DNA of 22,728 nt, taken from IMG/VR virus record IMGVR_UViG_3300038299_000034, positions 1 through 22,728 of that record; one strand, written 5' to 3'. This document shows, piece after piece, positions 7,703 to 22,057 of this stretch. A program made the translations under genes and the position numbers. Position 1 is the stretch's first letter. Each line of letters opens with the position of its first letter. The notes under the pieces were generated by a model. It was not told the origin of the DNA. It worked only from the letters and a program-made list of their open reading frames with translations, and searched no databases. This stretch comes from a virus.

Positions 7703-8206
7703 CTACAAAACCCAGCTAGTATAAATTGTATCTTTATCTGGATATATATCTTCGTTATTATTAGAGTAGTACTCTGGGAACTTACTAGAAGCATTATAGT
7801 TCATATAATCTATAAACTTGTTAGAGTAGTACTCAGCGTAATCTCTTTCTTTAGCAACAAGATGATCCACCTCTCTTTTTTCTGCAGTCTGACTATTCTC
7901 ACTACTATGCTTATGGACACCACTATTAGATATAGTATATGAAGCAAAAGGTAAGTATTCTGCCATTGCGTAATGAATTAACATAGGCACAATATAATCA
8001 TTTTTTAATGCTAGATAATCTCCAGAAAGGTTATTTGATTCAATATCCGAACTTATTCTATCATACAAATCCGTACCTAAGAAATTACGAACATGTATCT
8101 CTTGTGCCAATTTTATGAATTGAATAAATTTATCAGTATCAACACTACCACTAAGTGCAGTATTTTTTACTAAGTCTTTTCTTGTTATAAATAGTGCTGT
8201 AGCCAT
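7703..8206 (-). CDS. Head-tail connector-like protein (DUF6712-like)
   Basis: A 167-aa mostly helical protein that begins with ALFITRKDLVKNTALSGSVD and contains FIKLAQEIHVRNFLGTDLYD (28-47). It then has a YIVPMLIHYAMAEYLPF helix (71-87) and a polar insert rich in S, H and E. This pattern matches the DUF6712 family as I remember it, small proteins next to the portal in Bacteroidota phages that resemble head-completion adaptors. Its ATG (8206-8204) shares a base with the portal stop (TAATG), so it is coupled to the portal. In that position it most likely forms the ring below the portal that joins head and tail. The family name is from memory; the connector role is contextual. Confidence 0.72.
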   Translation of the reverse strand: MATALFITRKDLVKNTALSGSVDTDKFIQFIKLAQEIHVRNFLGTDLYDRISSDIESNNLSGDYLALKNDYIVPMLIHYAMAEYLPFASYTISNSGVHKHSSENSQTAEKREVDHLVAKERDYAEYYSNKFIDYMNYNASSKFPEYYSNNNEDIYPDKDTIYTSWVL

Positions 8207-9435
8207 TATTCTTCTATTTGTTCTTCTACTATTTCTTCGCTAGACTCTTCAGTAGTCTTTTTAACACCTGTTTCTTTCTCTATCTCCTGATCAGTAATAG
8301 CGTTAGTTAGATCGGTAAATTCAAGAGGCTGTAACGTCTTAAAGTATAACTCTAAATTTATATTGTTATATTCTAATATTTTTTCTAATTCATCTATAAT
8401 AGTAACTTGCATTGGTCTAATAACAGTATTATCCATCAACAAGGAAGCTGTTTGTAATTCATCTGCATTATTACCTAAACCAGAATTATCTTTTATTCCC
8501 ACTAACATTGGAGATACAATACGGTGAGAAACCATTACTTTTCTCATACTTTCATCAGACAAAAACTGATACTGTTGGTGAGCATCGTTTAGTATTACTG
8601 GCTCTATAGTTGCAGAAAGTTCTTTACTGTCGTTAAAAGCTAAAATAAATTTTCCTGCATTTGAACTTCCACTAAACTTTTCATATATAGCTCTCTCAAT
8701 CTCATCACGCTGCTCCTTATCTGGAGTACCATTATTAAAGTTAATAAGCATACTTGGTTGCAAACCATTCTGTATGTTGTTTATATGGTAGTTAGCTATC
8801 TCTTCTTCAAGTTCAGAATACTGTAAACCTCCCTGATAATCTACAGGAGAGTAGTAATAGAATCCTGCTCTATAAGGTCTAATATATAATATCTCTATAG
8901 AATCTTTACTCGTTCCAAATGCCGAAATGCGCTTAGGTCTTTCATTTCTTTTTAACTCAGCCCAATCTGGATGATAGAAGTAACCTCTAATCTCACCATC
9001 TTTAGACTTTTCTGCTCTAAGAGTTTCAATAGGCATATGCTCCACTTGAACAACACGAGAACGGTCTTTACTATATATTACTTGAACAGCAGCCTGTCCC
9101 ATCATCTTGTAATCGTAACAAAGCTTTTTTATACAATGCTTCTTGAATATATTTTTCATTTCAGCATAATCAGAAGAATTCTCCTCACTATCAGTAGCAT
9201 CTAAACCTCTACCATAAATCATCTCCGCTATACCATTTATAGCAGCATTATTAGTAGGAGAACCATTATATCTATCTATTAAATATTGAAAGTAATTATT
9301 GTCATCACCATAGGCAATCCAATCATTTCTAGCGTCCTCAATAACCTGAGGAGACGAATAAGATGTTAAATTTAGAACGTGAATACTATCTTTAACCTTT
9401 TTAACTTGTTTATTACTTGGACTTTTTCTAGCCAT
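8206..9435 (-). CDS. Phage portal protein
   Basis: A 409-aa protein that should form the dodecameric DNA entry ring at the capsid vertex. Visible portal features are an N-terminal region with NDWIAYGDDNNYFQYLIDRY (about 37-56) and the wing region GMAEMIYGRG-like segment (IAEMIYGRGLD, about 69-79). There follow the beta strands MMGQAAVQVIYSKDRSRVV and VEHMPIETLRA, the ELEEEIANYHINNIQNGLQPSM helix region, and SHRIVSPMLVGIKDNSGLG followed by NADELQTASLLMDNTVI, which is typical of the portal crown and stem. The C-terminus is acidic (EEIVEEQIEE). Its ATG shares a base with the stop of the 111-aa gene. The oddity is position: it lies downstream of capsid and tube genes and behind a terminator rather than before the protease. 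Confidence 0.88.
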   Translation of the reverse strand: MARKSPSNKQVKKVKDSIHVLNLTSYSSPQVIEDARNDWIAYGDDNNYFQYLIDRYNGSPTNNAAINGIAEMIYGRGLDATDSEENSSDYAEMKNIFKKHCIKKLCYDYKMMGQAAVQVIYSKDRSRVVQVEHMPIETLRAEKSKDGEIRGYFYHPDWAELKRNERPKRISAFGTSKDSIEILYIRPYRAGFYYYSPVDYQGGLQYSELEEEIANYHINNIQNGLQPSMLINFNNGTPDKEQRDEIERAIYEKFSGSSNAGKFILAFNDSKELSATIEPVILNDAHQQYQFLSDESMRKVMVSHRIVSPMLVGIKDNSGLGNNADELQTASLLMDNTVIRPMQVTIIDELEKILEYNNINLELYFKTLQPLEFTDLTNAITDQEIEKETGVKKTTEESSEEIVEEQIEE

Positions 9436-9770
9436 TACGCAAATATATAATCATTATCGTAAGTATCATCCATAACATATTCATCTTTATTGACATAATA
9501 CTTATCTAAATCTGTTTGATCGGTACAGAAAATTAAACCTCTATAAATCACTTCTGATCCATCTTTAACTTTAAAACTATATGACTCACCTTCTCTTAAA
9601 GAAAATTCACCAGACAGCTTCATATACTCACCCTCTGTAGTCTTAGTTACTGAAACAGTAGATGTAGTTCTTTTTGATTTATCTGTAAGCTCAAAAATAG
9701 GACTGCTAGAATCTCTTCTAGGTACTATCTTTATATTTTGAGTTTCAGTAGATGTTGTTAATACCTCCAT
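9435..9770 (-). CDS. 111-aa beta-rich structural protein upstream of portal
   Basis: A 111-aa protein with an all-beta look. There is a Thr-rich N-terminal strand region, then FSLREGESYSFKVKDGSE (about 56-73), then VIYRGLIFCTDQTDLDKY (about 74-91), and an acidic, Asp/Tyr-rich C-terminus. I recall similar 'EGxxYSFxVxDxxxxxYRGxIFxTxQxDxxKY' proteins immediately before portals in flavobacterial phages, but I cannot assign a named function; a small head decoration or portal-associated protein is plausible. It opens the third transcriptional segment, right behind a terminator, and is coupled to the portal by TAATG. No Shine-Dalgarno precedes its ATG. Confidence 0.75.
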   Translation of the reverse strand: MEVLTTSTETQNIKIVPRRDSSSPIFELTDKSKRTTSTVSVTKTTEGEYMKLSGEFSLREGESYSFKVKDGSEVIYRGLIFCTDQTDLDKYYVNKDEYVMDDTYDNDYIFA

Positions 9771-9818
9771 ACCAAAGTAATAAATATCTATTGTTTTGTT
9801 TTCAGTAAAGATAATAAA

Positions 9819-9847
9819 AAAAGGGTAGCTATAAAAACTACCCTTTT
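9819..9847 (-). terminator. Rho-independent terminator after the tail-tube gene
   Basis: On the minus strand a perfect 10-bp stem (AAAAGGGTAG paired with CTACCCTTTT, 9-nt loop) is followed by a run of Ts (TTTTTTTATT). It lies 21 bases past the stop of the 190-aa gene and before the 111-aa gene. Confidence 0.9.
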
Positions 9848-9868
9848 AATAATTAATCAATATGTATA

Positions 9869-10441
9869 TTATACAGCTGTTGGAGTTCCAATAGTAATTG
9901 TTCCGTCTAAAGCTGCCATAGCATCTACAGGGAAATTAGCAGTTCCGCTACCTGCAGTCTCAACAAAGTTTGGAGGAGAAACTTCTTGTGCAGTAAAAGT
10001 TAAGTTATAACCATTAAAGTCACCTAAAGCATTTCCAGTAGAAACAGTACCTGCTGTTACGTCAGCACCATTTTCTTTACCCATTAAGAATACATTGTCA
10101 TTTTGGTCAACAACAAAGATGTGAGGTCTACCTGCAGCTAATAGCTTTAATTCCTTATTATCTTCTTTAGTTAACTTCTTCAATGTAATGTTAAGAACTT
10201 GCTCGTAGAATACAGTACCATTCTCACGAGATGCATTAACTGTAGTTTCAAATGAGTTATTCCCTTTCACTTCGTAAGTATGAAGAGTTAAAGCTCCAGA
10301 TACTCCAGTCAAGTCTGTTACTTCGTCATTCGTTAAGGTGATAGCACCTAAATCACCGAAATCTGCAAAGTATATTTTTTTAATCCCTGCCACCGTATCT
10401 TTACACGCTTCGGCACGAGATCTAGTTAAATTACAAGCCAT
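9869..10441 (-). CDS. Probable major tail tube protein
   Basis: A 190-aa beta-rich protein starting MACNLTRSRAEACKDTVAGI, then KKIYFADFGDLGAITL (about 21-36) and a later YEVKGNNSFETTVNASRENG segment (56-75). A conserved-looking 'RxExCKDxVAGIKxIYFxxFGD' opening is what I associate with the tail-tube (major tail) proteins of flavobacterial siphophages. Size and abundant small residues fit a tube subunit. It follows the capsid gene and is flanked by rho-independent terminators (10464-10494 upstream, 9819-9847 downstream), which is consistent with separate control of an abundant protein. The leader has the A-rich repeat AAAAACTAAAAACT before ATG, without a Shine-Dalgarno. The alternative is a head decoration protein. 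Confidence 0.7.
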   Translation of the reverse strand: MACNLTRSRAEACKDTVAGIKKIYFADFGDLGAITLTNDEVTDLTGVSGALTLHTYEVKGNNSFETTVNASRENGTVFYEQVLNITLKKLTKEDNKELKLLAAGRPHIFVVDQNDNVFLMGKENGADVTAGTVSTGNALGDFNGYNLTFTAQEVSPPNFVETAGSGTANFPVDAMAALDGTITIGTPTAV

Positions 10442-10463
10442 AGTTTTTAGTTTTTATATAAAA

Positions 10464-10494
10464 AAAGGGTAGGTAGATATTCCACCCACCCTTT
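10464..10494 (-). terminator. Rho-independent terminator after the major capsid gene
   Basis: The minus-strand transcript can form a 13-bp stem, AAAGGGUGGGUGG with CUACCUACCCUUU, with two G-U pairs and a 5-nt AAUAU loop, followed by Us. It lies 22 bases past the capsid stop and 23 bases before the tail-tube ATG. Confidence 0.9.
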
Positions 10495-10515
10495 CTTATT
10501 AATTATTAATTATTC

Positions 10516-11511
10516 TTAGTTAGCAGAGTTTGTGATTCCGTAAGTAGTTATGTCAGAAATCTGAGCATACTGTACACCTGCAGAAAAACGCATTACTAAA
10601 CGAGCATTCTGAGAACCATCAAGGTCAGCCATATCTAGTAATTTAACTTCATTAAGATCTGATAATAACCCAGTTCCAAAGAAGATGTTACTCTTCTCTA
10701 CAGCTACAGCTTTGTTATCTCCTAATCCGTTAGCAACAAAGATTTTTACACCATCGAAAGATAAACCTCCTCCATTGTACCACATTGTTCCTTGAGAGTT
10801 GATTCCATTTCCACCAACACCTGCGATTCCAACGTTTTCGTCAGAAGCAGCATTTTGTTGAGTGACAGCTGCGAATCCACCTAAACTACGGATGTATGCA
10901 CGAGCAATGTTTTGAGAAACATATAAGTGTAAATCATCTTTTCCGTAAAGTGTAGAAGGGATTGCATCAACTAGTTTCCCAAGCTCAGCAACAACATTTG
11001 AAGAAGTAATAGCTACTCCTGCAACTTCTTGTGCAGCAGGTAATCCTGCATCAGCAGCAATCTTTGTAGTTAGACCATCAAATTGTCCGTTTGTAGCAGT
11101 AGAACCTTCCCAGATTGACTTCTCAGTACGCTCTGCTACTTTAGCAGCGATATGTCCGATGATGAAGTCAGCGAATGAAGGAGGTAATGAGTCGAAGCTC
11201 GAGTAACCCATTTGTACAGCTTCCCAATCTGATGCGAAGTCTTTCTTACATAATTGTAAGTTTACTTGCTGATCTTCTGGCTGAAGGATAGCCTCTGTAA
11301 GAGTTAGAGTTGATGTTGGATCAAAGTCACAAGTTGCATCTTTAACGATATCGTCAACAGACACTTTCTTTATAACTTCCTTGAATTTTACGTTAGGCTT
11401 AACGGTAATCCCTCCTTGAGCGATAGTGTTAGCTTCAAGTAAAGCTGCAGCGATATATTGTCCTGCCGCTTCTCCTGCGTAAGTTGTTGTAATTGAAGTA
11501 GTTGTAGCCAT
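10516..11511 (-). CDS. Major capsid protein (HK97 fold)
   Basis: A 331-aa protein with the layout of small HK97-fold capsid proteins. The N-terminal segment runs through KFKEVIKKVSVDDIV (about 43-57) and the DFDPTSTLTLTEAILQPEDQ E-loop-like region (62-81). A helical P-domain stretch follows (SFADFIIGHIAAKVAERTEK, about 111-130, with SIWEGS), and then an A-domain with LHLYVSQNIARAYIRSLGG. Near the end are GVKIFVANGLGDNK and LVMRFSAGVQYA strands. Position right after an acidic scaffold and an XkdF-like protease, and before a strong terminator, supports the call. The leader is A-rich (AAACAAAAAAGAA) without Shine-Dalgarno. Codon use looks less AT-biased than in its neighbours, as expected of a highly expressed gene. 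There is no obvious N-terminal delta domain, since scaffold is a separate gene. Confidence 0.9.
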   Translation of the reverse strand: MATTTSITTTYAGEAAGQYIAAALLEANTIAQGGITVKPNVKFKEVIKKVSVDDIVKDATCDFDPTSTLTLTEAILQPEDQQVNLQLCKKDFASDWEAVQMGYSSFDSLPPSFADFIIGHIAAKVAERTEKSIWEGSTATNGQFDGLTTKIAADAGLPAAQEVAGVAITSSNVVAELGKLVDAIPSTLYGKDDLHLYVSQNIARAYIRSLGGFAAVTQQNAASDENVGIAGVGGNGINSQGTMWYNGGGLSFDGVKIFVANGLGDNKAVAVEKSNIFFGTGLLSDLNEVKLLDMADLDGSQNARLVMRFSAGVQYAQISDITTYGITNSAN

Positions 11512-11522
11512 TTCTTTTTTGT

Positions 11523-12026
11523 TTATTTATTGTTTAATCTATTAAATACTCTATCTAAAGTATTAGTAGGTCTATTTTTCCCATAACTAAATACTTGTTT
11601 GTTTTCTCCAGATGATTCTGGGGAGTGTTTGATTGGTTCTGCTGCAGGTTCTGAAGCTAGGTCAGATGAAAGTTTTTCTACCTTAGAAGATAGTTCTTCT
11701 TTCTCTTTTACCAAGCTACTCATTTGCTCTTGAACCATAGCTTTAATAGAAGCTAATTCAGCCTCCATTTCACTAACTTTACTTGCAAATGCCTCTTCTG
11801 TAACATAACCTGCTTCTAATGAAGCTTCTTCTTCTAACACCTCTTCGGTGTACTCTTCTGGTGCTTCTGCTAACTCTTCTGTAGCTTCAGCTACTTCTTG
11901 AGCTTCTTCCTCCACAGCCTCTACTTCTTCTAAAATAACTACTTCTTCTGTAGCCTCTTCTTTAGTAAGCAAAGACAACTTCTGTAGAATCTCATTCAGT
12001 AATGATGTTGCTTTTGGACTTTCCAT
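11523..12026 (-). CDS. Capsid scaffold-like protein
   Basis: A 167-aa very acidic protein. Residues about 22-75 are dominated by Glu with Ala and Val. Residues about 75-125 form a likely coiled coil (SKVSEMEAELASIKAMVQEQ, then KEKEELSSKVEKLSS). The C-terminus turns basic with KNRPTNTLDRVFNRLNNK (150-167), the kind of short positively charged helix by which scaffolds contact capsid subunits. It sits between the protease gene and the capsid gene and ends 11 bases before the capsid ATG, the standard scaffold position. It should be removed by the protease during maturation. A perfect inverted repeat lies 16 bases upstream of its ATG and may mark a regulatory site. No enzymatic motif is present. 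Confidence 0.82.
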   Translation of the reverse strand: MESPKATSLLNEILQKLSLLTKEEATEEVVILEEVEAVEEEAQEVAEATEELAEAPEEYTEEVLEEEASLEAGYVTEEAFASKVSEMEAELASIKAMVQEQMSSLVKEKEELSSKVEKLSSDLASEPAAEPIKHSPESSGENKQVFSYGKNRPTNTLDRVFNRLNNK

Positions 12027-12042
12027 AATTTTAATAAATATT

Positions 12043-12060
12043 TATAGTTAAGTAACTATA
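12043..12060. promoter_or_regulatory. Perfect 8-bp inverted repeat upstream of scaffold gene
   Basis: TATAGTTA-AG-TAACTATA is a perfect dyad with 8-bp arms and a 2-bp spacer. It lies in the 69-bp gap between the 53-aa Cys-rich gene and the scaffold ATG. It has no G/C-rich stem or T-run, so it is not terminator-like; a protein-binding operator or activator site is more likely. Its half-site resembles the ATAGTT boxes at 22118-22194. Confidence 0.45.
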
Positions 12061-12095
12061 GGTTAGTAAAGTGTTCTATTTTTACGATTTCTTAA

Positions 12096-12257
12096 TTAAG
12101 GTTCTGTGATCTGACCAGTTATATTTCCTATCCCTTGCGCTCTTAGACTTCCGTCACAACACTTAGATGAATATGTCTTGCCATTTGCACATAAACACCC
12201 TCTTTTGCCGCCTTTAGGACTAGACTTACTTTTGTATGAACTCTTACGATTTATCAT
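12096..12257 (-). CDS. 53-aa Cys-rich small protein (CLC...CC motif)
   Basis: A 53-codon gene starting at ATG 12257-12255 inside the last codons of the protease gene (14-bp overlap, different frame) and ending at TAA 12098-12096. The product has a basic N-terminus (about ten K/R in 20 residues) followed by KRGCLCANGKTYSSKCCDGS (18-37) and LRAQGIGNI. The four cysteines C21, C23, C33 and C34 suggest a small metal-binding knuckle. The motif 'GCLCxxxTYxxKCCxGxxxxQGIG' is one I recall as a short conserved protein in Bacteroidota phage structural operons. Its function is unknown; basic residues plus a metal knuckle would suit nucleic-acid or protein binding during head assembly. The overlap with the upstream gene supports translation by coupling. 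Confidence 0.78.
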   Translation of the reverse strand: MINRKSSYKSKSSPKGGKRGCLCANGKTYSSKCCDGSLRAQGIGNITGQITEP

Positions 12258-13167
12258 TCTCTATTGATTTTATTTTAGATTTTGACCAAGAAAGTGCTGA
12301 CTTACCACCCCAAGCATCATACATTAATTTACCACAACCATCATCATACGACTTAGAAGAATCTAAATCCCCTGCGTGACGAGAAAGGAAGCTATACATT
12401 CTCTTTATAGTTGATAATGTGATCGCTGCTTTTGAAGCTAACTGGTTTGCTCTACGTTTCCCTACAGAAGTTCCACAAGAACCCCAACCATTCTCTTCAG
12501 CCCATTTTAAAGCCCTTTTAGCGTTGTTTGATACAGAGTCTGGATAATCACTATAAGAAGCTAATTTAAGTGCCTTAGACTCTAACTCATCGGCAATCTC
12601 CTCAAGCAGAGATATAGCCTCTGGACTATTCAATTCATCATCTTCACTCATCTCAATTTTATCAGTAAAATATCCTTCTATAGAAAACCCACTAACCTTT
12701 CCAGTTTTAACATAGTTCTCCCATACCTCATCATTATTTACCTTCATAGAAACCATCCAAGTTCCTACTGGCAAATCCATATTAAATTTACGAGACTTAT
12801 CGTGAACATCATCCTCAATAATCCAAGACTCTACTACAGATAGACCATGAAGTTTTGCTTCGTGCTCTAAAGTAGATTGATTTTGATTACCTCTCATTAA
12901 AAACAACTGAGATGCTTGTCTAACTGTTTCATCTGAAAAGTATATATAGTATTCCTCTTCTCCGTTAGTACGGTAGATATTCTTGTTAGGTATCAAAGCA
13001 GCACCCATAAGAATACGCTTCTCATTATCTACCTCTGCTAGTTCAACCTTATGCTCTTTAGATAAAGCAATAAAGTTTTCTTCTATAGCAGGTCTATCCA
13101 CTATTGAAATTGCTTCAATACCAGAAAAGTCTGCCTCTTCATCAATTAGTAATTCTATTATTCTCAT
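12244..13167 (-). CDS. XkdF-like prohead protease with C-terminal extension domain
   Basis: A 307-aa protein. Residues 1-170 resemble the XkdF-type phage serine protease: an opening with IIELLIDEEADFSGIEAISI, the segment SIVDRPAIEENF (21-32), ILMGAALIPNKNIYR (52-66) and a helix with LEHE (100-103). Later comes KVSGFSIEGYF (157-167). By analogy H102 and S162 are the catalytic candidates. It should process scaffold and capsid during head maturation. Residues about 205-300 form a second domain with W222, W228GSCG, RRANQLASKAAI, C278GKLMYDAWGG and W294, seen fused to phage head proteins. Its ATG overlaps the tape-measure stop (ATGA). Oddly it follows tail genes instead of a portal gene. Confidence 0.82.
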   Translation of the reverse strand: MRIIELLIDEEADFSGIEAISIVDRPAIEENFIALSKEHKVELAEVDNEKRILMGAALIPNKNIYRTNGEEEYYIYFSDETVRQASQLFLMRGNQNQSTLEHEAKLHGLSVVESWIIEDDVHDKSRKFNMDLPVGTWMVSMKVNNDEVWENYVKTGKVSGFSIEGYFTDKIEMSEDDELNSPEAISLLEEIADELESKALKLASYSDYPDSVSNNAKRALKWAEENGWGSCGTSVGKRRANQLASKAAITLSTIKRMYSFLSRHAGDLDSSKSYDDGCGKLMYDAWGGKSALSWSKSKIKSIENDKS

Positions 13168-15494
13168 AGTCCTGCTGTATTTATTATTGTTCTATCTAAC
13201 TCTTGTTGGTTTGTTATATCTTTACCTACTACATATGCTTTTAGTGGCTCATTTACTTTTCCTGACACAGCTTGAGCTAACTGATCCGTAGAAGATGTTC
13301 CTACTACATTGAAGTCTGGTGCTTGTACAACATTACCACCGCCACCACTAGAAGAACCTCCAGATGGTTTTTTGAATGAGCTAATTGTAGTAGCTAATAT
13401 ACTTGCTATACCAATACCTGCACCTACTTTAGTCATCAAAGTTTCTTTGGCAAACATAGCTTCATTTGCAGCTATTTGAATAGCACTAAACGGAATAGGT
13501 AGAGACATTGCAGCTGTATTAGCAACACTTGTGTTTGCTCTTGCTCGTGCTATACTTGAGTGCGCATCAATAACAATACCTCCTATTGCTGCTCCTTTCT
13601 CTAAAACTAACGCTGCTTTCTGAAGAGCTTCATTTTCACCTGCTAATTTAGACATTATTTGACCAATACCCAAAGTGTAATTAACATAAGCCGTATTAAT
13701 CCTCTTCTTCTCTTCTATAGAAGCAATTTCTTTCTGTAAGCTGTTTTGTCTCAACTTATCTTCTAAGTTGAACAATTCTACTTGTGCTTGTGCTTTTAGA
13801 AGACTTCCCTGTTCATACGCACCAACAATCCTTTTTTGCTGCTCAATATCTTTACTTAAAGCATCTTCTCTAGCTTTATAATAACTCTCTTCATCACCTA
13901 AGCCTAACTTTAAAATATCAGCAGAGTCAAGCCTGAACTTTCTTAAAATATCTAGTCTCTTGTCATTTTCTTTTTCAGCTATATTTGCATCCTTACGAAT
14001 TTGTAAAGTCCTTAATGACGAGATAAAATTAAGAACCTCAACTTCTAGTGATTTTCTTTTTTCAGCAGTATCCTCTATAGATTTTAAATATTCCGCATCC
14101 GCATCCGCTGACAACACATCAGCTTCCTCTTGAGTTATATTCTTAGATTTAACATCTTGAGCCAACTGATCTTTATAATCCGCAAGTCTTAATTGTTGTC
14201 TACGAACAAAAACCTGTTCGATTATATCAATCTTAGCCATCTCATTTTGTTGAGTCTGTGCTAATATCTCTTGATCAGTAAGTAATTCTGACCTCTGAGA
14301 CCGCTCTCTATATCTCTGTTCTATTTTCTCAAAATCAGTGTATTTAGCTTCAAATATCTTAGTCTGAAACTCAGAGCCATCTTTAGCTATTTTACTTTTC
14401 TTTTTCTCTGTTATGTCAATTAGAGTTATAAGGAAGTCTAATTTATCATTCTCTGATTTAATCTCATCCTTAGATGCCTCATCAATCTTAGCTACAGCAT
14501 CTACATAAGCTTGAGCCTTCTCTTCTTGAGACACCATGATTGTTTGACCATTCTTAAGTTCTTGCTTAATTAAAGCTCTACCATTTTTATATAGAAACTT
14601 ATCCCTTTCAACAGTTTTATCTACCTCTTTTTGAAGCTCTATTTCAACTATCTTTCCAGATATTTCCCTGAATTTATTTTCAGCAGCTTGAGACAAAGCT
14701 CTTCTCCTTAAAGAATCTATGTATAAATTTTGAACCCTAGTAGCTTCTTTTGTATTAGTTATCTCTTGTAAAACACTAGCATTAAAGTCTGGATATTCTT
14801 CATTCAGCTTTCTTAAAGCTATAGCTCTTTGCTCCTCTGATTCGTTTGCATCACTTAATATTCTAGTGTATATCTTAAAATTACCTATTAATGACTCTGC
14901 GTTTTCAGAGGCAGATTTAGTTAAGTCAGATAATGTTTTTATATTTCCATTTAAACCTCCTATAGATTTTATAAAATCTAAAACCCTCTTATCCTGAAAT
15001 AAACCTATTAATATTTGAAATCCAAGCAAAAGACCTCCAATACCGAACAACGACTTTCTTAACTCACCCAAAGCAGAACCTAAGCCTCCAGTAGTATTTA
15101 CGAAACTACCTCCTAAAGACACTATTTGAGATAAGTTGTTTGCTATAGCTGTAAATCCGTAGGAAGCATCTGACGCCAATCTACCCGTTTCTAATAAGAT
15201 GGCGTTATTTAAACCTGCTTGAGTTCTGAATTGTTTAGTTCCTGCACCTGCCTTTTTAGTGGATAGTTCGTATGTAGAAGCAATCTTACCTGCATTCTCC
15301 ATTTCATAATTCAACTTCCTTTGCTGTTCAGCAGCTAACTTTTGCTCACCTCTAAGTGATGCCTGTTCTTTATTTACTTTATTAGTTTGGTTAGCTAAAA
15401 CACCAAATGACTTACTTAACTTACCTGAACTTACCTCAGCTTTTTTGCTAGATACATCAATCGTTACGAATATATTCTTATTTCCTGCTGCCAT
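13164..15494 (-). CDS. Tape measure protein
   Basis: A 776-aa protein that sets tail length and is ejected with DNA. The N-terminus (NIFVTIDVSSKKAE) is followed by a long helical, Q/K/E/A-rich region. A hydrophobic helix stands at about 148-168 (LFGIGGLLLGFQILIGLF). Extended coiled coils run about 330-640. A second Ala/Ile-rich hydrophobic stretch (around 640-720, including GAGIGIASILATTI) follows, then a Ser/Gly-rich linker and the tail QAVSGKVNEPLKAYVVGKDI. This architecture is characteristic of siphovirus tape measures. At about 1.5 angstrom per residue it would predict a tail of roughly 115 nm. It overlaps the 50-aa gene upstream by 17 bp and the protease downstream by 4 bp. I see no lysozyme or peptidase motif inside it. 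Confidence 0.88.
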   Translation of the reverse strand: MAAGNKNIFVTIDVSSKKAEVSSGKLSKSFGVLANQTNKVNKEQASLRGEQKLAAEQQRKLNYEMENAGKIASTYELSTKKAGAGTKQFRTQAGLNNAILLETGRLASDASYGFTAIANNLSQIVSLGGSFVNTTGGLGSALGELRKSLFGIGGLLLGFQILIGLFQDKRVLDFIKSIGGLNGNIKTLSDLTKSASENAESLIGNFKIYTRILSDANESEEQRAIALRKLNEEYPDFNASVLQEITNTKEATRVQNLYIDSLRRRALSQAAENKFREISGKIVEIELQKEVDKTVERDKFLYKNGRALIKQELKNGQTIMVSQEEKAQAYVDAVAKIDEASKDEIKSENDKLDFLITLIDITEKKKSKIAKDGSEFQTKIFEAKYTDFEKIEQRYRERSQRSELLTDQEILAQTQQNEMAKIDIIEQVFVRRQQLRLADYKDQLAQDVKSKNITQEEADVLSADADAEYLKSIEDTAEKRKSLEVEVLNFISSLRTLQIRKDANIAEKENDKRLDILRKFRLDSADILKLGLGDEESYYKAREDALSKDIEQQKRIVGAYEQGSLLKAQAQVELFNLEDKLRQNSLQKEIASIEEKKRINTAYVNYTLGIGQIMSKLAGENEALQKAALVLEKGAAIGGIVIDAHSSIARARANTSVANTAAMSLPIPFSAIQIAANEAMFAKETLMTKVGAGIGIASILATTISSFKKPSGGSSSGGGGNVVQAPDFNVVGTSSTDQLAQAVSGKVNEPLKAYVVGKDITNQQELDRTIINTAGL

Positions 15495-15630
15495 AGTAGT
15501 ATCTCTTTAATTGTTTTTTCATATCTTCTACAGTACCTATAGCTTTGTATTTTCCTTTGGCAATATCAACCTCTTCTGATACTCCGTACCAGTCATCAAT
15601 ATTTAGTAACTCTATAATTTGTTTTACCAT
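15478..15630 (-). CDS. 50-aa small protein coupled to tape measure gene
   Basis: A 50-codon frame whose ATG (15630-15628) shares a base with the stop of the 784-aa gene and whose end overlaps the tape-measure start by 17 bp. The product begins MVKQIIELLNIDDWYGVSEE and continues with DIAKGKYKAIGTVEDMKKQL and a Lys/Arg/Tyr-rich end. It has one helix with DW, a beta-like GKYKAIGT segment and a basic helix. I recall comparable 'IIxLLxxxDWxxVxEExDIxxGKYKAIGT' proteins directly before tape measures in flavobacterial phages, without known function. It occupies the slot where siphophages often keep tail chaperones, but those are accounted for elsewhere here. Coupling at both ends makes it a confident gene. 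Confidence 0.78.
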   Translation of the reverse strand: MVKQIIELLNIDDWYGVSEEVDIAKGKYKAIGTVEDMKKQLKRYYYGSRK

Positions 15631-17984
15631 TATATTATCTCGTCTGAAGTTAGGTTAATTAGTTCTAATTCTGTTTTACCTGTAGTAAGGTTTGTAGTTA
15701 TAGAATTAATACGATACACCACATCATGTACCTTTAGTTGGTCGTTTAACTTATAACTAATTAGTATACTTGGAGGAAGGTATGCGTTAAACTTAAATAT
15801 TCTTTTATCTTTATCAAAAACACTACTTATATAATTCTTATAGAATTTATTAAATAAAGAATTCGAGCTTCTTCCGAAGTCATTTAAAACAAACTCATCA
15901 ATCTCAGCATCAAATGTCAAGGCGTAACTTGGAGCAGTAGTGAAAGCTCCACCACCATCAACCACAGCAGTTTCATTAGTATTAGATGGTCTGTAATATT
16001 GGCTTGTAATTACACCTGCCTGAGTCCCTGAATAACTTCCAAACATAAAAGGAGTGTCAGTCGTTTCTCTCACTCCGTAAAATAATAATGGTTTTATGTT
16101 TTCAGAACTATAATCACCTTCTGGCATTGTAGGATTGGAGCTGTCTGAAAAGTCTCCATCTTTTGCATCAAAGTCACCTCCTGCTGCATACCCCCACTGA
16201 AGGTTAGTACCCTCTATTCTTTCATATTTAAGTATAGTAAAAGGAAGTTTAACCTCATAACTTTCTCCAAAGAAGAAATCTGTATCAGGATACTGTTCTG
16301 CTATAGATAAACTAGAATCTCCAAATACTTTACCAAAAGTATCTAGATGATTCTTTTTTATTACAGTATCATTCTCTTCGTAAGAAAATATAATTTCTGA
16401 AAATGGTAATGAAGTGTTTATATTATTAGAACTTACATCGATATATTTAGTTATATCTATAGTTCCTTTACTTTGATTATTAATAGCATCAGCATAAAAA
16501 TCATCTAAAGTAGTTATCTTTACAACATTCGGATTTCCATTAGAGTCAGTTCCATATTCAGAATCTGTTTCATCATCAATAAGATACGCTGTAAGATTAA
16601 ACATCTTAAATAAACCAGTAATGAAGTCTATAATCTTCATATCAGGAAGTTCGTTCTTTATAGTTATATTCTTTTGGCTAGTATCAAAACCTACATTAGA
16701 ACCAAACTTAGTAGTATACATTTCAAAATCCGAAGGTTGATTCCACCAAAGAAACTCTCCATTATCCTCTCTTGCCTCAAAGATAATTTCAGTTTCTGAC
16801 ATAGCAGCTTCCGAAGAAAACTCTATATAATACACTTGATCATCGTCTAAACCAAAAGGTATAGTTACTAGTGCTTTCTTACTCCCAGAACCTTTTATAA
16901 CTTGATATCTACCAGTATCTTTATTAACTAGTTTAACCATCCAGTTTATATGAGAATATGTAGGTGTAGGGTTAACGTGTATTTTGAAGTCAAAGTCATA
17001 TGCCCAATATGAATTTACTGTGTTGTTAGAAAAACCATCTTTTACACCTCCTTTTATAGTAAATTCTCCATTGCTTTCTGACAGCCAAACGAAGTCTTCA
17101 TCTGATTGAGAGTGATTACCGAAGACTGTAGGTATCCCAGTATAAAAGTAGTTGTCCTCACCTTCATTATTAACCATACTACCAGAAGAATTACTTATCC
17201 ATAAATACAAGTTAGAAATAGCCTCATTCTGAATAGATAGGAAGTCTTTAGTTCCTGCATTATCATTAGGTATAAGAACTAAGTCAAACTTACTTTCAAT
17301 AGCTTTTATTATATGGTAGATTTTTATAGCAGGTTTTAAATCACTCTCATTAACCCCTCTTAAAGCATATAACTTTAGGTCATTAGGATCTGTAGGTGGG
17401 TAAGAATCAGGTACGTGTAAATTACCACTAAAGTTTTGATTAGATGTTATTGATAAGTTAGGGTTATAAAACAATCTTTTTTTAGATGTTATAAGAGGGA
17501 ATATTAGAGCGGAGTTATCTCCGTTAACAGTCTTACCAGTTGATAAAAATATATTCTCTATATTATTATGTGAAAACTCAAAATCAAAGCTAGATAGATC
17601 TAAAGAGCTTAATTTATTATCTTTAAACTTATCTTTCAAAGAAACGGTATTACCGTAGAAAGTAATCCTGTATGTATGGGCAACGTTATTCTTCATGTCA
17701 ACACCCTCAAGAAATACCTTACCTTTCTTAAATAGAAGAGTGTTTATGAATATTTTAGCTTCGTGACGAACTCTACCATCAAAACCACCATCTATATTAT
17801 GATTATAGAAGTGTTTAAATATTTTATTATTTTGAGATGATGCAGGTATTGAAAATGTTTGACTATAATCAGTAAATACTTTACTTATGTCTTTAGCGTC
17901 TTGAATTGATGATTTCACTTCTATACTCTCATCATTAAACAAGTCTACTCTTTTATCTTCTATATATAATTGTACCTGTCTCAT
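15630..17984 (-). CDS. Large tail/baseplate protein, Bacteroidota-phage type
   Basis: A 784-aa protein opening MRQVQLYIEDKRVDLFNDES and followed by DISKVFTDYSQTFSIPAS (about 32-49), KHFYNHNIDGGFDGRVR (56-72) and YRITFYGNTVSLKD (about 105-118). It ends with a typical line of beta structure, VVYRINSITTNLTTGKTE. This combination is the large tail-tip/baseplate protein I know from flavobacterial siphophages, where it is encoded just before the tape measure or its small partner. By size and position it could serve as the baseplate hub or tail-tip protein (Dit/Tal-like), though I see no enzymatic motif. A membrane segment and signal peptide are absent. Its start abuts the 371-aa gene stop with no gap and its stop is coupled to the 50-aa gene. 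Confidence 0.78.
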   Translation of the reverse strand: MRQVQLYIEDKRVDLFNDESIEVKSSIQDAKDISKVFTDYSQTFSIPASSQNNKIFKHFYNHNIDGGFDGRVRHEAKIFINTLLFKKGKVFLEGVDMKNNVAHTYRITFYGNTVSLKDKFKDNKLSSLDLSSFDFEFSHNNIENIFLSTGKTVNGDNSALIFPLITSKKRLFYNPNLSITSNQNFSGNLHVPDSYPPTDPNDLKLYALRGVNESDLKPAIKIYHIIKAIESKFDLVLIPNDNAGTKDFLSIQNEAISNLYLWISNSSGSMVNNEGEDNYFYTGIPTVFGNHSQSDEDFVWLSESNGEFTIKGGVKDGFSNNTVNSYWAYDFDFKIHVNPTPTYSHINWMVKLVNKDTGRYQVIKGSGSKKALVTIPFGLDDDQVYYIEFSSEAAMSETEIIFEAREDNGEFLWWNQPSDFEMYTTKFGSNVGFDTSQKNITIKNELPDMKIIDFITGLFKMFNLTAYLIDDETDSEYGTDSNGNPNVVKITTLDDFYADAINNQSKGTIDITKYIDVSSNNINTSLPFSEIIFSYEENDTVIKKNHLDTFGKVFGDSSLSIAEQYPDTDFFFGESYEVKLPFTILKYERIEGTNLQWGYAAGGDFDAKDGDFSDSSNPTMPEGDYSSENIKPLLFYGVRETTDTPFMFGSYSGTQAGVITSQYYRPSNTNETAVVDGGGAFTTAPSYALTFDAEIDEFVLNDFGRSSNSLFNKFYKNYISSVFDKDKRIFKFNAYLPPSILISYKLNDQLKVHDVVYRINSITTNLTTGKTELELINLTSDEII

Positions 17985-19100
17985 TTATCTTACGCTTTGT
18001 ATGAAGTCAGAATCAGCTTCAAATTCAAGTGTATATTCTATTAACTTATCATCCCTTCTTGTTTTAATATCTAAAGAACTAGTTATTACTGAAACAGGAA
18101 TTGCCAAAGGAAATGAAGAGTCTGTAGGACTTCTTCTTGCAGAATGAGATATATAAACATACTCAGAAACTAACATTTCTTTTATAACTTCATTGTAAGA
18201 CTCATCAACAAAACCAGTATTCATTGTTATTTTTTCTTTACCTTGATTCTCTAAAACTACGTTTTGATGGGAAGATATATCATAAGATACAGAAGAATTT
18301 ATGTTTAGTATAGACTTTTTGTAAGATTCATTTTTACTAGAAAAAGAGTCTTTTCTTTTAGCAAAAAACCATATATCTTGCATAACACCAAATTTATTAA
18401 TAAAGGAAACTTTATTAGGTATATTTTTACATTCTTCTATACATTGTATTTTTATGACTTTAGTTGTTCCATCGGAAGAAGTGATTACTACTTCGTCAGC
18501 ACCTTCAGATAATAATGTAGTGCTTATAGTATTATTATTAGAAGATGTTGTATCAAAAGTTTTATCTATAGTTAAAATGTCTGTTGCAGGAGGATTTAAA
18601 TGTACCCCTTGAGCTATAGTAAATCTTTCAGAACTACCAGTCACAATAGACTCTATTTCAGATGATCCTTGAATATAAGTTACATCTGTAACTCCACCTT
18701 CGCCATATGAATATACAGGTAAAGTCATGTATTGTCCACACAAATTACTTACTGTTGTGTTAGACATCATAACATCTTTAGAAAGCTCTGGATTTACACC
18801 ATCAGATATATTACCATAACCTCTAAAAGCTATAGCGTGTTGAGTAAATGTATCTGTAGAATTGTCAGAATAAGTCCTGACTACTATCCATTTAGCCCAT
18901 TTACTTTGAACTATAGTATTATAATCTCCATTGAACTCTATATCTACATGATCTTTAACTAATTCAGATATTTCAAATGTTATTATATCTTCTGTACTTA
19001 GCTTTGTTTTACTTAAAACATATTGTGGCTCTTCAGGAACTGAAGCTATACTTCCCCCCCAAACATATAAACTTAATCTTGCACTTACTAACTGTTCCAT
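17985..19100 (-). CDS. Tail protein, Bacteroidota-phage type (371 aa)
   Basis: A 371-aa beta-rich protein. Its N-terminus carries LYVWGG and PEEPQYVLSKTKLS (about 12-34), then FEISELVKDHVDIEFNGDY (42-60). A central region around residues 220-250 has two cysteines and CKNIPNKVSFINKFGVMQDIWFF-type strands (split here as CKNIPNKVSFIN and KFGVMQDIWFF). The C-terminus is EYTLEFEADSDFIQSVR. I recognise these as elements of a tail protein family common in flavobacterial phages and coded just before the 784-aa type gene; the exact structural role is not known to me. It starts three bases after the 382-aa gene and abuts the 784-aa gene, so all three probably act together at the tail tip. Confidence 0.7.
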   Translation of the reverse strand: MEQLVSARLSLYVWGGSIASVPEEPQYVLSKTKLSTEDIITFEISELVKDHVDIEFNGDYNTIVQSKWAKWIVVRTYSDNSTDTFTQHAIAFRGYGNISDGVNPELSKDVMMSNTTVSNLCGQYMTLPVYSYGEGGVTDVTYIQGSSEIESIVTGSSERFTIAQGVHLNPPATDILTIDKTFDTTSSNNNTISTTLLSEGADEVVITSSDGTTKVIKIQCIEECKNIPNKVSFINKFGVMQDIWFFAKRKDSFSSKNESYKKSILNINSSVSYDISSHQNVVLENQGKEKITMNTGFVDESYNEVIKEMLVSEYVYISHSARRSPTDSSFPLAIPVSVITSSLDIKTRRDDKLIEYTLEFEADSDFIQSVR

Positions 19101-19103
19101 ATT

Positions 19104-20252
19104 TTATTGCTGATTAGTCAGACCATTTATTTTAGATACATATCTTTCCCCATTACGAAAAATATCTTGAGTGGCAAGAGGTCTGAGTGAAATAGTATCA
19201 AAAATTATTTTTACATTAGATTTATCTCTATATTCATAGTGTGTAAACCATATACCTACACTATACCCTGCTACACTAGGCAATAATGTACGAACTCCAT
19301 TTATAACCTCAACAGGTCTTCTAGCCATTCTAAAAGTTAAACCAAGAGTTCCTTCTCCTCTAGGAGCGTCAACTATAATCTCTTGATTTAATTGACCAAA
19401 GTTTAGGTGAGATAAATGTGTTAATGTCATACCAGAATAATCCCACTCTTTATGAGATTTATTATACAGGGCTCCAGTCGAAGGGTAAGGGAAGGAATTG
19501 GACTCTGGAGCAATCAATGGTGTTTGATTATCAAATATAAGTCTAATACCATCACCAGTAGACTTATTAGAGGATAAGTCATAATTTGTACCATCTACAG
19601 AGACACTGAATTGACTTAATGTAGCAGGTGTTCTATGTTCTATAGTTAAAACGTTAACATATCCAGTTGTAACAGGAGACTCTATACCTACCATATCTTG
19701 ACAAGATAAGTTATGTGTAAGCCCTAAAGCTCTTAAGGGAAATTGCTGTTCAATTATTAAGTTTGTTCCAAAATTATCTGACTCATTTTGAGTGTAATTG
19801 TATGTTAAACTTTTACTTATAACTGGGTATTGCCCGTTAGACTTAGGTGTTAAAGTAGTAGGAGACTCTCCAGTAGCGGCTAACCATAAAGATGCGTACT
19901 CATCTCTTCCTACAGTATAAAAATCAGGAGGAACAGCTCCTTCATTATAAATCCTTATTTTCATAGGTACTTTTACATCATCCACAGTATAAGTAAATTG
20001 ACCAAACTGACGACCTGCCATTTTATGCCTATATTTGTGAACTCCAGTAGCACTTCCAATTGAATAATCAACTCCACAACCTAAGTCGTAAATAGGAACG
20101 ACTGGTTCTGTTGGTGGGTCTGGATCTGGAGGTATTATTTCAACAACTGGATCAAATGGATCTGGATCAACTACTGGAACTACATAAGCGTTCCCTACAT
20201 TTACATAGTAAGGACTTCTTACGTTTATTTTCTTTATGTTATTTATTGCCAT
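19104..20252 (-). CDS. Tail-associated protein with Pro/Asp-rich linker (382 aa)
   Basis: A 382-aa protein beginning MAINNIKKINVRSPYYVNVG, followed by a proline/aspartate/valine-rich linker at residues 26-53 (PVVDPDPFDPVVEIIPPDPD and onwards) and then a beta-rich body. Notable segments are YDLGCGVDYSIGSATG (about 55-70), HKMAGRQFGQFTYTVDD (76-92), LTIEHRTPATLSQFSVSVD (205-223), and SVGIWFTHYEYRDK near residue 335. The linker suggests an anchoring N-terminus and an exposed C-terminal domain, perhaps a tail-tip or minor fibre protein. I do not recognise the body domain. The N-terminal 'NINxRSPYYVN' string normally opens the family represented by the next gene. It starts two bases after the gp10-like gene and has no Shine-Dalgarno. 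Confidence 0.68.
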   Translation of the reverse strand: MAINNIKKINVRSPYYVNVGNAYVVPVVDPDPFDPVVEIIPPDPDPPTEPVVPIYDLGCGVDYSIGSATGVHKYRHKMAGRQFGQFTYTVDDVKVPMKIRIYNEGAVPPDFYTVGRDEYASLWLAATGESPTTLTPKSNGQYPVISKSLTYNYTQNESDNFGTNLIIEQQFPLRALGLTHNLSCQDMVGIESPVTTGYVNVLTIEHRTPATLSQFSVSVDGTNYDLSSNKSTGDGIRLIFDNQTPLIAPESNSFPYPSTGALYNKSHKEWDYSGMTLTHLSHLNFGQLNQEIIVDAPRGEGTLGLTFRMARRPVEVINGVRTLLPSVAGYSVGIWFTHYEYRDKSNVKIIFDTISLRPLATQDIFRNGERYVSKINGLTNQQ

Positions 20253-20254
20253 TA

Positions 20255-20821
20255 CTATATAATAAAATTATCTCCTTTTTTAACATACCCTGACTTAATC
20301 AGTATTTCTTCTATATTTAGATTAATATCTTCGACTATAGGATTACCTATGTCATCTAGTTGATTTACCATTTTATTTAGTGCCTCAGATATAAAACTAG
20401 CTTTGTAGACACCTCTTGCTTGTATCTTTTTAGTAATAACGTTAGCTAGTGATTGTACTCTACTTTCTGGAACTCCACTAATTACTGATCCTGTTTTTAA
20501 ATCACGCAACATTACAGGCTTTCTTCGGATCCAGTCCGCTATATCAGCAACCCTTACATCTGGTATTCCTACATCAGAACCTTCATCCAATACTTTACCA
20601 TAAGAATTACCTTCAATATTAAAAGAAAACCCATCTGGATTAGCTTTATACATACTCATTATAGAATTAGCTAAAGAACCACTAGATTCTATAGGAGCTG
20701 TAAAGGAACCATACTTACTTTGTCTCTGCTTTGCGTTTTTAAGTTCTAAGCGTAAAGCCTTAACTAACTTCTTAGAGAAGTTATTCATGTATGCTTTTGT
20801 ATTTGAGAACTTATTTACCAT
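20255..20821 (-). CDS. HK97 gp10-like head-tail joining protein
   Basis: A 188-aa protein. A long N-terminal helix rich in Lys and Arg (about 14-38) precedes ESSGSLANSIMSMYKANPDG (45-64). Then come the strand-turn motif NSYGKVLDEGSDVG (72-85), where 'YxxxLDEGT' is the usual gp10 turn, and VADIADWIRRKPVMLRDLKT (91-110). Further on it has SLANVITKKIQARGVYKA (125-142). This arrangement fits the HK97 gp10 / minor tail completion group that sits at the head-tail interface. Its ATG shares a base with the stop of the 163-aa gene (TAATG). Homology is from motif memory, so a related tail-completion protein is the main alternative. Confidence 0.68.
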   Translation of the reverse strand: MVNKFSNTKAYMNNFSKKLVKALRLELKNAKQRQSKYGSFTAPIESSGSLANSIMSMYKANPDGFSFNIEGNSYGKVLDEGSDVGIPDVRVADIADWIRRKPVMLRDLKTGSVISGVPESRVQSLANVITKKIQARGVYKASFISEALNKMVNQLDDIGNPIVEDINLNIEEILIKSGYVKKGDNFII

Positions 20822-21312
20822 TAGCAGTCAGATGTTCCGTCAGCGTTAATCAATCCCATATCATTATTAGGCATATTAATTGTTAAATCCATAGACCAAC
20901 CAGTAAGAAGATTCTCAAACCTATCCTCAAATAGATTGGCACTAGCAGGACTATCTATTTCCACATTTGCATCGTTAAGACCTCCTCTTCTAAGGGAGCT
21001 TTGTAATCCATTTATAACCGTTAGCATTGTATTTAAAATATCTTGTTTATTGTCAAGTCCTAGATGTGGTTTTGCCAATGATAATTTATCTTCTTTATCC
21101 TCGTCAACAACATCCATAGCAACTATGTTTATATTAAAAGTAACTATATACTCATCGAATGTTACGGACTGTACGTTAATATGGGCAAGAGGGAATATTG
21201 TTTGGTTTGCTAGATCAATATCCATTATATCTCCTAAAGTAACCGTATTTATAGATTTGTTACCATTTAGATAGTTGTAGATATAATTTACTAATTCGTA
21301 GTATGTTTTCAT
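20821..21312 (-). CDS. Tail terminator-like protein (163 aa)
   Basis: A 163-aa protein with an N-terminal helix (YYELVNYIYNYLNGNKSIN, about 4-22), then TVTLGDIMDIDLANQTIFP (23-41) and an alternating strand pair FDEYIVTFNINIVAMDVVDED (52-72, given as FDEYIVTFNINIVAM and DVVDED). A helix with DILNTMLTVINGLQSSLRRG (about 90-109) and a final strand LLTGWSMDLTINMPN complete it. Mixed alpha/beta of this length beside a gp10-like gene fits a tail terminator or tail completion protein. Its ATG (21312-21310) overlaps the stop of the frameshifted chaperone extension, so its translation is coupled to the -1 frame and not to the shorter zero-frame product, whose stop is 65 bases away. No specific family signature was recognised. 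Confidence 0.6.
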   Translation of the reverse strand: MKTYYELVNYIYNYLNGNKSINTVTLGDIMDIDLANQTIFPLAHINVQSVTFDEYIVTFNINIVAMDVVDEDKEDKLSLAKPHLGLDNKQDILNTMLTVINGLQSSLRRGGLNDANVEIDSPASANLFEDRFENLLTGWSMDLTINMPNNDMGLINADGTSDC

Positions 21313-22057
21313 TTGTATTGGTTTTTTATCATTTGAGCTTCTAACTCATTTTTCTCTTTTTCAAACACTAAGTATGTTAAACATTTGTGGAGCGGTTGTG
21401 CTGTAACTTCGTCAAATTTAAGTAAGTCTCCTCTAGCGATTCCATAAATAGATTGATACCAACCCCATTTTGCTCCAAAGCCTGACGAAGCTGAGTATTG
21501 TCCTCTTTCTTCAGAGTCATTTCCGTATACCTCAGGGTAGCCTTCGACAACTGAATCCCTAAACGATAAAAAAAAACCATAGCGCTCATTGTGGCACTAA
21601 GAGGCATTTCTTTCATTATTTCTTCTATCTCTTCATTTGGCGAATAAGGTGCTATTGTGTACTTATCTCCCTTCTTGAAGTTTACAGGACGATACAGAAC
21701 CGCCATAGCTTTATGTATTTGTTGCCAATCAGTAATAGTACTCTCTAGATCTATAAATTCACCTAAAGAAATATTGTCTAGTTTTGGGATAAAACCAAAC
21801 TCAACATCTCGCAACGTAAAATGCTTCATTAATTCCCTATCCTCCTCAAAAGCTATTTTAAGCACTTCTAAGACCTTTTCTACATCCATAATGGGTATAG
21901 AGTCCACTTCACTCATATCTACACCGCAGAACAGCTCTATAAGCTTCTTATTGACATACTGAGCATCCTCATCATCTGCGATATTTAAATACTCTTGGTA
22001 TTGCCATAGTTGAATCTCATCTAGAGATGTTGGTACGGAAAGGGTTATTGTTGCCAT
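21309..22057 (-). CDS. Tail assembly chaperone, long frameshift form (GT-like, 249 aa)
   Basis: The first 163 residues are those of the 226-aa frame. A -1 slip on TTTTTTT (21575-21569) then continues into a second frame with 86 further codons, giving 249 residues and stop TGA at 21311-21309. The extension begins LSFRDSVVEGYPEVYGNDSE and contains SASSGFGAKWGWYQSIYGIA and RGDLLKFDEVTAQPLHKCLT. It ends with a Lys/Glu-rich helix. The W-G-W-Y block with 'DxxKFDEVTxxPLHxCLTxLxFEKxKNE' is what I recall of the T-type half of tail chaperones in Bacteroidota phages. The -1 frame has a TAG at about 21598 and no ATG, GTG or TTG before the slip, so it cannot be translated alone. Its stop overlaps the next gene's ATG. 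Such G/GT pairs chaperone the tape measure and tail tube during assembly, as in lambda. Confidence 0.85.
21377..22057 (-). CDS. Tail assembly chaperone, short form (G-like, 226 aa)
   Basis: Zero-frame product of the same gene. The acidic helical N-terminus contains LDEIQLWQYQEYLNIAD (12-28), and a central part has TDWQQIHKAMAVLYRPV (109-125). YSPNEEIEEIMKEMPLS (138-154) leads to the slip site at V161-F162-F163. After the slip site the zero frame gives 63 residues, YRLGIQLSKATLRYTEMTLK and on to NGVGINLFMESLEE, ending at TAA 21379-21377. The pattern 'LYRPV ... Y ... A..MPL..A..A..FF' resembles the tail-chaperone family of Bacteroidota siphophages. ATG 22057-22055 follows a 220-bp non-coding region, so this is the first gene of the tail operon. 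The short form should be the major product, as in lambda gpG. Confidence 0.82.
   Translation of the reverse strand: MATITLSVPTSLDEIQLWQYQEYLNIADDEDAQYVNKKLIELFCGVDMSEVDSIPIMDVEKVLEVLKIAFEEDRELMKHFTLRDVEFGFIPKLDNISLGEFIDLESTITDWQQIHKAMAVLYRPVNFKKGDKYTIAPYSPNEEIEEIMKEMPLSATMSAMVFFYRLGIQLSKATLRYTEMTLKKEDNTQLRQALEQNGVGINLFMESLEETYLNLTKLQHNRSTNV
21569..21575 (-). other. Programmed -1 frameshift site (T TTT TTT)
   Basis: Nine consecutive Ts (plus-strand As 21568-21576) place a canonical X XXY YYZ heptamer, T TTT TTT, in the zero frame over codons V161-F162-F163. Two tRNAs decoding TTT can re-pair on TTT after slipping back by one base, and the next codon becomes TTA. I did not identify a stimulatory downstream structure. 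Confidence 0.82.

Follow-up and report, generated by a model that had tools for sequence, protein, structure and literature searches.

A predicted programmed -1 frameshift in a putative tail chaperone gene of Bacteroidota phages opens onto DNA selected in two reading frames

The first gene of the tail cluster in a 22,728-nt stretch of viral DNA (IMG/VR record IMGVR_UViG_3300038299_000034, positions 1 to 22,728, hereafter the window) carries a slippery heptamer that opens a long -1 frame. The frameshift site was confirmed at the level of sequence, and a programmed -1 frameshift is very strongly supported by comparison, as the heptamer, the missing start and the conserved extension recur in >150 distinct relatives and in two isolated phages. 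Comparison of the relatives further shows that about 190 nt after the slip are dual-coding, giving a shared N-terminal domain two alternative C-termini, both of them selected.

We infer that a fusion protein is produced here by ribosomal slippage of low efficiency. Most ribosomes on the gene starting at 22057 would keep to the zero frame and yield a protein of 226 aa, while for a minority a backward slip of one base on U_UUU_UUU would lead to a protein of 249 aa, with the first ~163 residues in common and a different C-terminal domain of 86 residues. The two products may work together as a tail assembly chaperone pair of the G/GT type: coating of the tape measure protein would fall to the shared domain, and recruitment of the tail tube subunit to the rarer -1 domain. 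The unshifted product would have its own selected helical tail of 55-90 residues, encoded in the same ~190 nt. A ribosomal -1 slip, a G/GT-type chaperone pair and two selected C-termini are together the best explanation overall, and one that we consider probable.

Results

Layout of the gene and its slip site

The zero-frame gene (21377..22057, minus strand) encodes a G-like product of 226 aa, with homologues in 38 IMG/VR relatives and in the Nonlabens phages P12024L and P12024S. It contains a T9 homopolymer (21568..21576, minus strand), within which the heptamer T_TTT_TTT (21569..21575, minus strand) lies in zero-frame register, the surrounding codons being ATG GTT TTT TTT TAT. The sequence through FF (21569..22057, minus strand) encodes the domain of about 163 residues common to both products, as delimited by AlphaFold2 and alignments. 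From the slip the -1 frame is open to a TGA at 21311-21309, and the resulting T-like extension (21309..21569, minus strand) comprises 86 codons and the stop, or 88 codons if the two slip codons are included. Upstream of the slip the -1 frame consists of seven codons following a TAG (21599-21597), among which ATG, GTG and TTG are absent, leaving the extension with no usable start. Its TGA overlaps the ATG of the next gene (20821..21312, minus strand; 163 aa, phrog_30964) as ATGA at 21312-21309; the zero-frame stop lies 64 nt short of that gene. The heptamer, the 86-codon frame, the lack of a start, the ATGA overlap and the apparent 64-bp gap had all been reported in the initial annotation, and each held when the coordinates were measured. 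With this overlap between the -1 stop and the next ATG, stop-start coupling, if it occurs, would be available to frameshifted ribosomes alone.

The initial annotation had overlooked the length of the overlap. The zero-frame gene extends far past the slip, with 189 nt between the heptamer and the zero-frame stop, compared with mean distances of 26 nt (SEA-PHAGES) and 36 nt (Xu set) in published tail chaperones (PMC10885494). Positions 21377..21568 (minus strand) therefore encode both residues 164-226 of the zero-frame product and the first part of the -1 extension.

Conservation of the slip site and of the extension

A scan with the zero-frame protein, confirmed by tblastn, gave 38 loci, all of which contained the heptamer (38/38). 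Scanning with the -1 extension gave at least 80 viral loci and two loci in Bacteroidetes MAGs. The third scan used the WGWY domain only and was blind to the slip, and a T run of 9 or 10 was present in each of the best 80 of >500 matches. Because the scans matched >500 loci, the group of relatives is larger than the one listed. The run was 9 T in 97 of 102 distinct relatives and 10 T in the other five. No prophage relatives beyond the two starting MAG contigs were found among 459 whole genomes searched. The relatives form a Bacteroidota phage group of very large size, and the window appears to come from a virus of Bacteroidota-type bacteria.

Across 155 distinct sequences the codon preceding FF was GTT, CTT, TTT or ATT throughout, its third-base T being invariant. 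The first F codon was TTT in 155/155 and the second in 154/155; the exception, L112, has TTC, and its heptamer TTTTTTC is still slippery and its T10 run retained. At valines a few codons upstream GTA was as frequent as GTT, and Phe codons elsewhere were TTT in 78% of cases, so the third-base T's at the slip site are held by something besides the protein. Elsewhere in the long ORFs of the relatives only two T9 runs occurred in 296,745 nt, versus 55 slip sites. Loss of the T run in close relatives, which the initial annotation had named as evidence against a frameshift, was never seen, the sole variant being the TTTTTTC of L112. A -1 start before the slip was absent in most relatives.

The W/G/Y-rich sequence that had merely looked conserved in the window proved to be a conserved domain, with the motif string KWGWYQSIY...CLxYLxFEKEKNELE, and its conservation starts at the slip. 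The -1 domain of the window was 46-70% identical to those of the alignment representatives and 30% identical to that of P12024L. AlphaFold2 gave a helical model for the extension alone (pLDDT 68). The start of the next gene overlapped as ATGA in 92 relatives and took the form TAATG in 34.

Some loci departed from this pattern. A premature TAG lies within the extension of L003 (4588-4590). The two halves lie in a single frame in L179 (1-340) and L234 through apparent indels, L234 having an upstream frame break as well; these were the only single-ORF forms among the relatives, and each is best explained by an indel. A scan for the T10 pattern found 26 loci that keep the shift by a motif test and seven left unclassified by it, six with the same frame layout and L234, which is in frame.

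Ribosomal or transcriptional slippage

No stimulatory RNA structure was conserved within 60 or 100 nt downstream of the slip in 51 relatives (mean z -0.41 and -0.29, respectively), and an alignment fold of the downstream region gave 0 conserved pairs. An SD-like element before the slip was found in only 11/155 sequences and was not conserved. Such structures or SD elements are usual, but not obligatory, for programmed -1 frameshifting. Slippage at a low level is what a U_UUU_UUU site without such aids would be suited to, as in tail chaperones for which 6-7% has been measured (PMC3711429).

The missing RNA structure and SD element would equally agree with slippage during transcription, whereby RNA polymerase stutters on T9 and adds an extra U to some mRNAs, generating the same -1 fusion without a ribosomal slip. 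No relative measured has a run shorter than 9 T, a length near the slip range of bacterial RNA polymerase, homopolymers of eight or longer being prone to slippage (PMC3711429, which cites Wagner 1990), and L112 keeps its T10 run with TTC in the heptamer. However, the outer two T's are fixed by conserved residues (V, L, F or I before, Y or W after, and Leu in the -1 frame), and since these residues force the flanking T's the run length is not independent evidence. Ribosomal slippage is preferred, as the likelier of the two, because the characterised tail chaperones of other phages frameshift on the ribosome (PMC5009743). Slippage by RNA polymerase appears unlikely here, but it is an alternative that deserves consideration.

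Selection in both frames after the slip

Beyond the slip, nearly all relatives keep the zero frame open for a further 55-90 codons, and P12024 for about 26. When codons were redrawn from usage with the -1 protein kept, the zero frame closed after a median of 8 codons, and the observed length was reached in 0.25% of draws (median p about 0.0025). Synonymous change between pairs of relatives, as observed over expected, was ~1.0 (saturated) before the slip and 0.75 in the last ten columns before it; the ratio dropped to 0.19 in the 10 codons that follow the slip, lay at 0.46-0.85 across the overlap and was back at 1.01 beyond the zero-frame stop. The suppression thus coincides with the overlap and ends at the end of the zero frame.

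Conservation of the zero-frame tail was assessed over 707 pairs of diverged representatives, against draws in which the -1 protein was preserved and stops were disallowed. Identity was 0.365 compared with 0.286 ± 0.005 (sd) expected, where the draws do not model the phylogeny in full and the sd's are not p-values; the BLOSUM mean was 1.32 compared with 0.79 expected, and -1 synonymous differences were 0.41 compared with 0.53. In the control, a single-coding stretch of the same gene, the corresponding values were 0.263 against a null of 0.263 and 0.541 against a null of 0.533, which suggests that relatedness adds little to the statistic. Because conservation of the tail exceeds what the -1 protein and stop avoidance would produce, the zero-frame tail is a selected protein segment, not a mere open frame.

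Were only the -1 domain of importance, the zero-frame continuation would be a passive by-product of an open frame. The tail is indeed less conserved across relatives than the -1 domain (identity 0.48 vs 0.61), its AlphaFold2 model is helical but of low confidence (pLDDT 54-69), and in P12024 it is short. Against this stand an openness beyond chance, a conservation in excess of a null whose control was calibrated, and a synonymous constraint that stops where the zero frame stops. This explanation is disfavoured, and we regard it as improbable.

The gene in isolated phages

Homologues of the window protein (31% identity) are present in the Nonlabens (Persicivirga) phages P12024L and P12024S, where two hypothetical genes are annotated, gp40 (175 aa) and gp41 (55 aa). 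These occupy 23946-24640 in P12024L (JQ823123; 4010-4704 of L040) and 23136-23830 in P12024S (JQ823122; 3995-4689 of L041). A T9 site is found in gp40 about 25 codons before its stop, from which the -1 frame runs through gp41, including the annotated ATG, and contains WGWY. The pair, classed as phrog_32199 and phrog_38404, is a true homologue of the window gene; it differs in its short zero-frame tail and in lying directly after the terminase gene. Most simply, gp40 and gp41 would be one T9-frameshifted gene missed in the record, as the initial annotation had expected of any frame-by-frame annotation: the site was entered as two unrelated genes. A scan led by P12024 gp41 returned one locus, and later alignments were computed without the P12024 row.

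The P12024 record offers the alternative of two separate genes, with the extension translated from its own start. The gp41 ATG of P12024L lies in a TAATG overlap with gp40, and an extension with its own start in a related phage had been named beforehand as evidence against the frameshift. An annotated ATG does exist in both phages, but the T9 slip is also present and the -1 frame is open upstream of and through that ATG; the annotated start is most likely an artefact. Moreover, ATG, GTG and TTG are lacking from the -1 frame ahead of the slip in the window and in most relatives, and the slip is also where conservation sets in. Two separate genes are therefore very improbable. A homopolymer sequencing error, in which the true genome would be T10 with one fused ORF, is refuted in practice: T9 runs are error-prone and contig L234 has T10 with both parts in one frame, but T9 is found in isolates and in >150 distinct sequences, T10 and T12 runs preserve the -1 relation, a fused frame would not keep the downstream zero frame open and conserved, and L234 carries its additional frame break.

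Flavobacterium phage 6H (L125, 10050-10927, minus strand) encodes a protein (AGN89393; BFVD R9VW65) structurally similar to the N-domain of the window protein (E 1.1e-4), and past the stop of its gene the -1 frame is open but unannotated. Unlike the window, it has no T9 run; a candidate slip region in 6H lies near GCACCCGATAA.

Tail chaperone assignment and operon context

The AlphaFold2 model of the zero-frame protein had a pLDDT of 82 overall, mostly 81-96 over residues 1-170. A structure search of viral models (BFVD) returned 34 relatives at E <= 0.001, all uncharacterised or unnamed, including the P12024S and 6H proteins, and, as a weak hit, a protein that bears the name tail assembly chaperone (A0A8S5V8Z8, E 0.065, prob 0.85). 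At least five predicted viral proteins (A0A6J5N0W0, A0A516L5A8, A0A6J7WDG4, A0A6J5SVK3 and A0A6J5MY57) matched both half-models, which suggests that they are single-ORF fused forms in distant phages; homologues with both halves in one product, the absence of which would have spoken against the initial annotation, thus seem to exist. Profile searches of Pfam and NCBIfam gave no significant tail chaperone match, PF10109 reaching only E 0.17, and a fold search of the PDB gave no match.

The gene heads the tail cluster, and a tape-measure-like gene (13164..15494, minus strand; 776 aa, phrog_30292, function unknown) lies further downstream in this operon, separated from it by five genes. By eye, the length of its product and its coiled and hydrophobic stretches point to a tape measure protein, presumed to be the partner of the chaperone. 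The identification as a tail chaperone made in the initial annotation fits the frameshift architecture and the position ahead of the tape-measure-like gene, while the profile searches lent it no significant match; on the former grounds a G/GT-type role appears quite likely.

The minus-strand operon of the window also encodes a portal protein (phrog_33693, E 4e-87), an XkdF-type head protease, a capsid candidate, a tail fibre and an M15 peptidase. Its order is unusual, as the chaperone, tail and tape-measure-like genes precede those for protease, capsid and portal (8206-22057), and a tail-tube-like gene of 190 aa (9869-10441) lies between the capsid candidate and the portal. At 269-656 two long minus-strand ORFs overlap, the M15 peptidase (117 aa) and a 125-aa frame that is probably spurious.

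Discussion

Tail chaperones made by frameshifting are textbook knowledge for long-tailed phages, and a short zero-frame continuation past the slip is typical, if not strictly defining, of G/GT chaperones. In phage P2 the E/E+E' frameshift likewise uses a T-rich site (T_TTT_TTG) and an extension without a start; to our knowledge its sequence is unrelated to that of the window gene. In lambda, gpG and gpGT arise by a -1 slip at a heptamer in a tail-cluster gene upstream of the tape measure gene (Xu, Hendrix and Duda 2004; reviewed in PMC5009743), and the domain added in the longer product has no start of its own, as is predicted for the window gene. A sequence relation to lambda is not detectable, and the window differs in that its unshifted product has its own selected tail and its tape-measure-like gene is not adjacent. 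The kind of frameshift is thus known; the length of the overlap and the selection on both frames set it apart and are unusual. No report of a dual-selected overlap in tail chaperones was found in the open-licence literature.

Long dual-coded overlaps defeat frameshift predictors, as such programs prefer a zero-frame stop close to the slip; of 43 genes with >51 nt, PRFect found 2 (PMC10885494). The site described here corrects the annotation of isolated phages, and phrog_32199 and phrog_38404, the two halves at present held as unrelated unknown families, should be linked. It also gives a large group of Bacteroidota phages a frameshift that bears a function, and supplies an uncommonly clear natural example, ~190 nt long, of prokaryotic virus DNA selected in two frames. 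On balance, we favour the interpretation that in this group frameshifting selects one of two functional C-termini encoded by ~190 nt of dual-coded DNA, instead of adding a single one, and is possibly driven by RNA polymerase slippage on U9. This raises the question of whether the tail of the unshifted chaperone has a role that is absent from lambda gpG.
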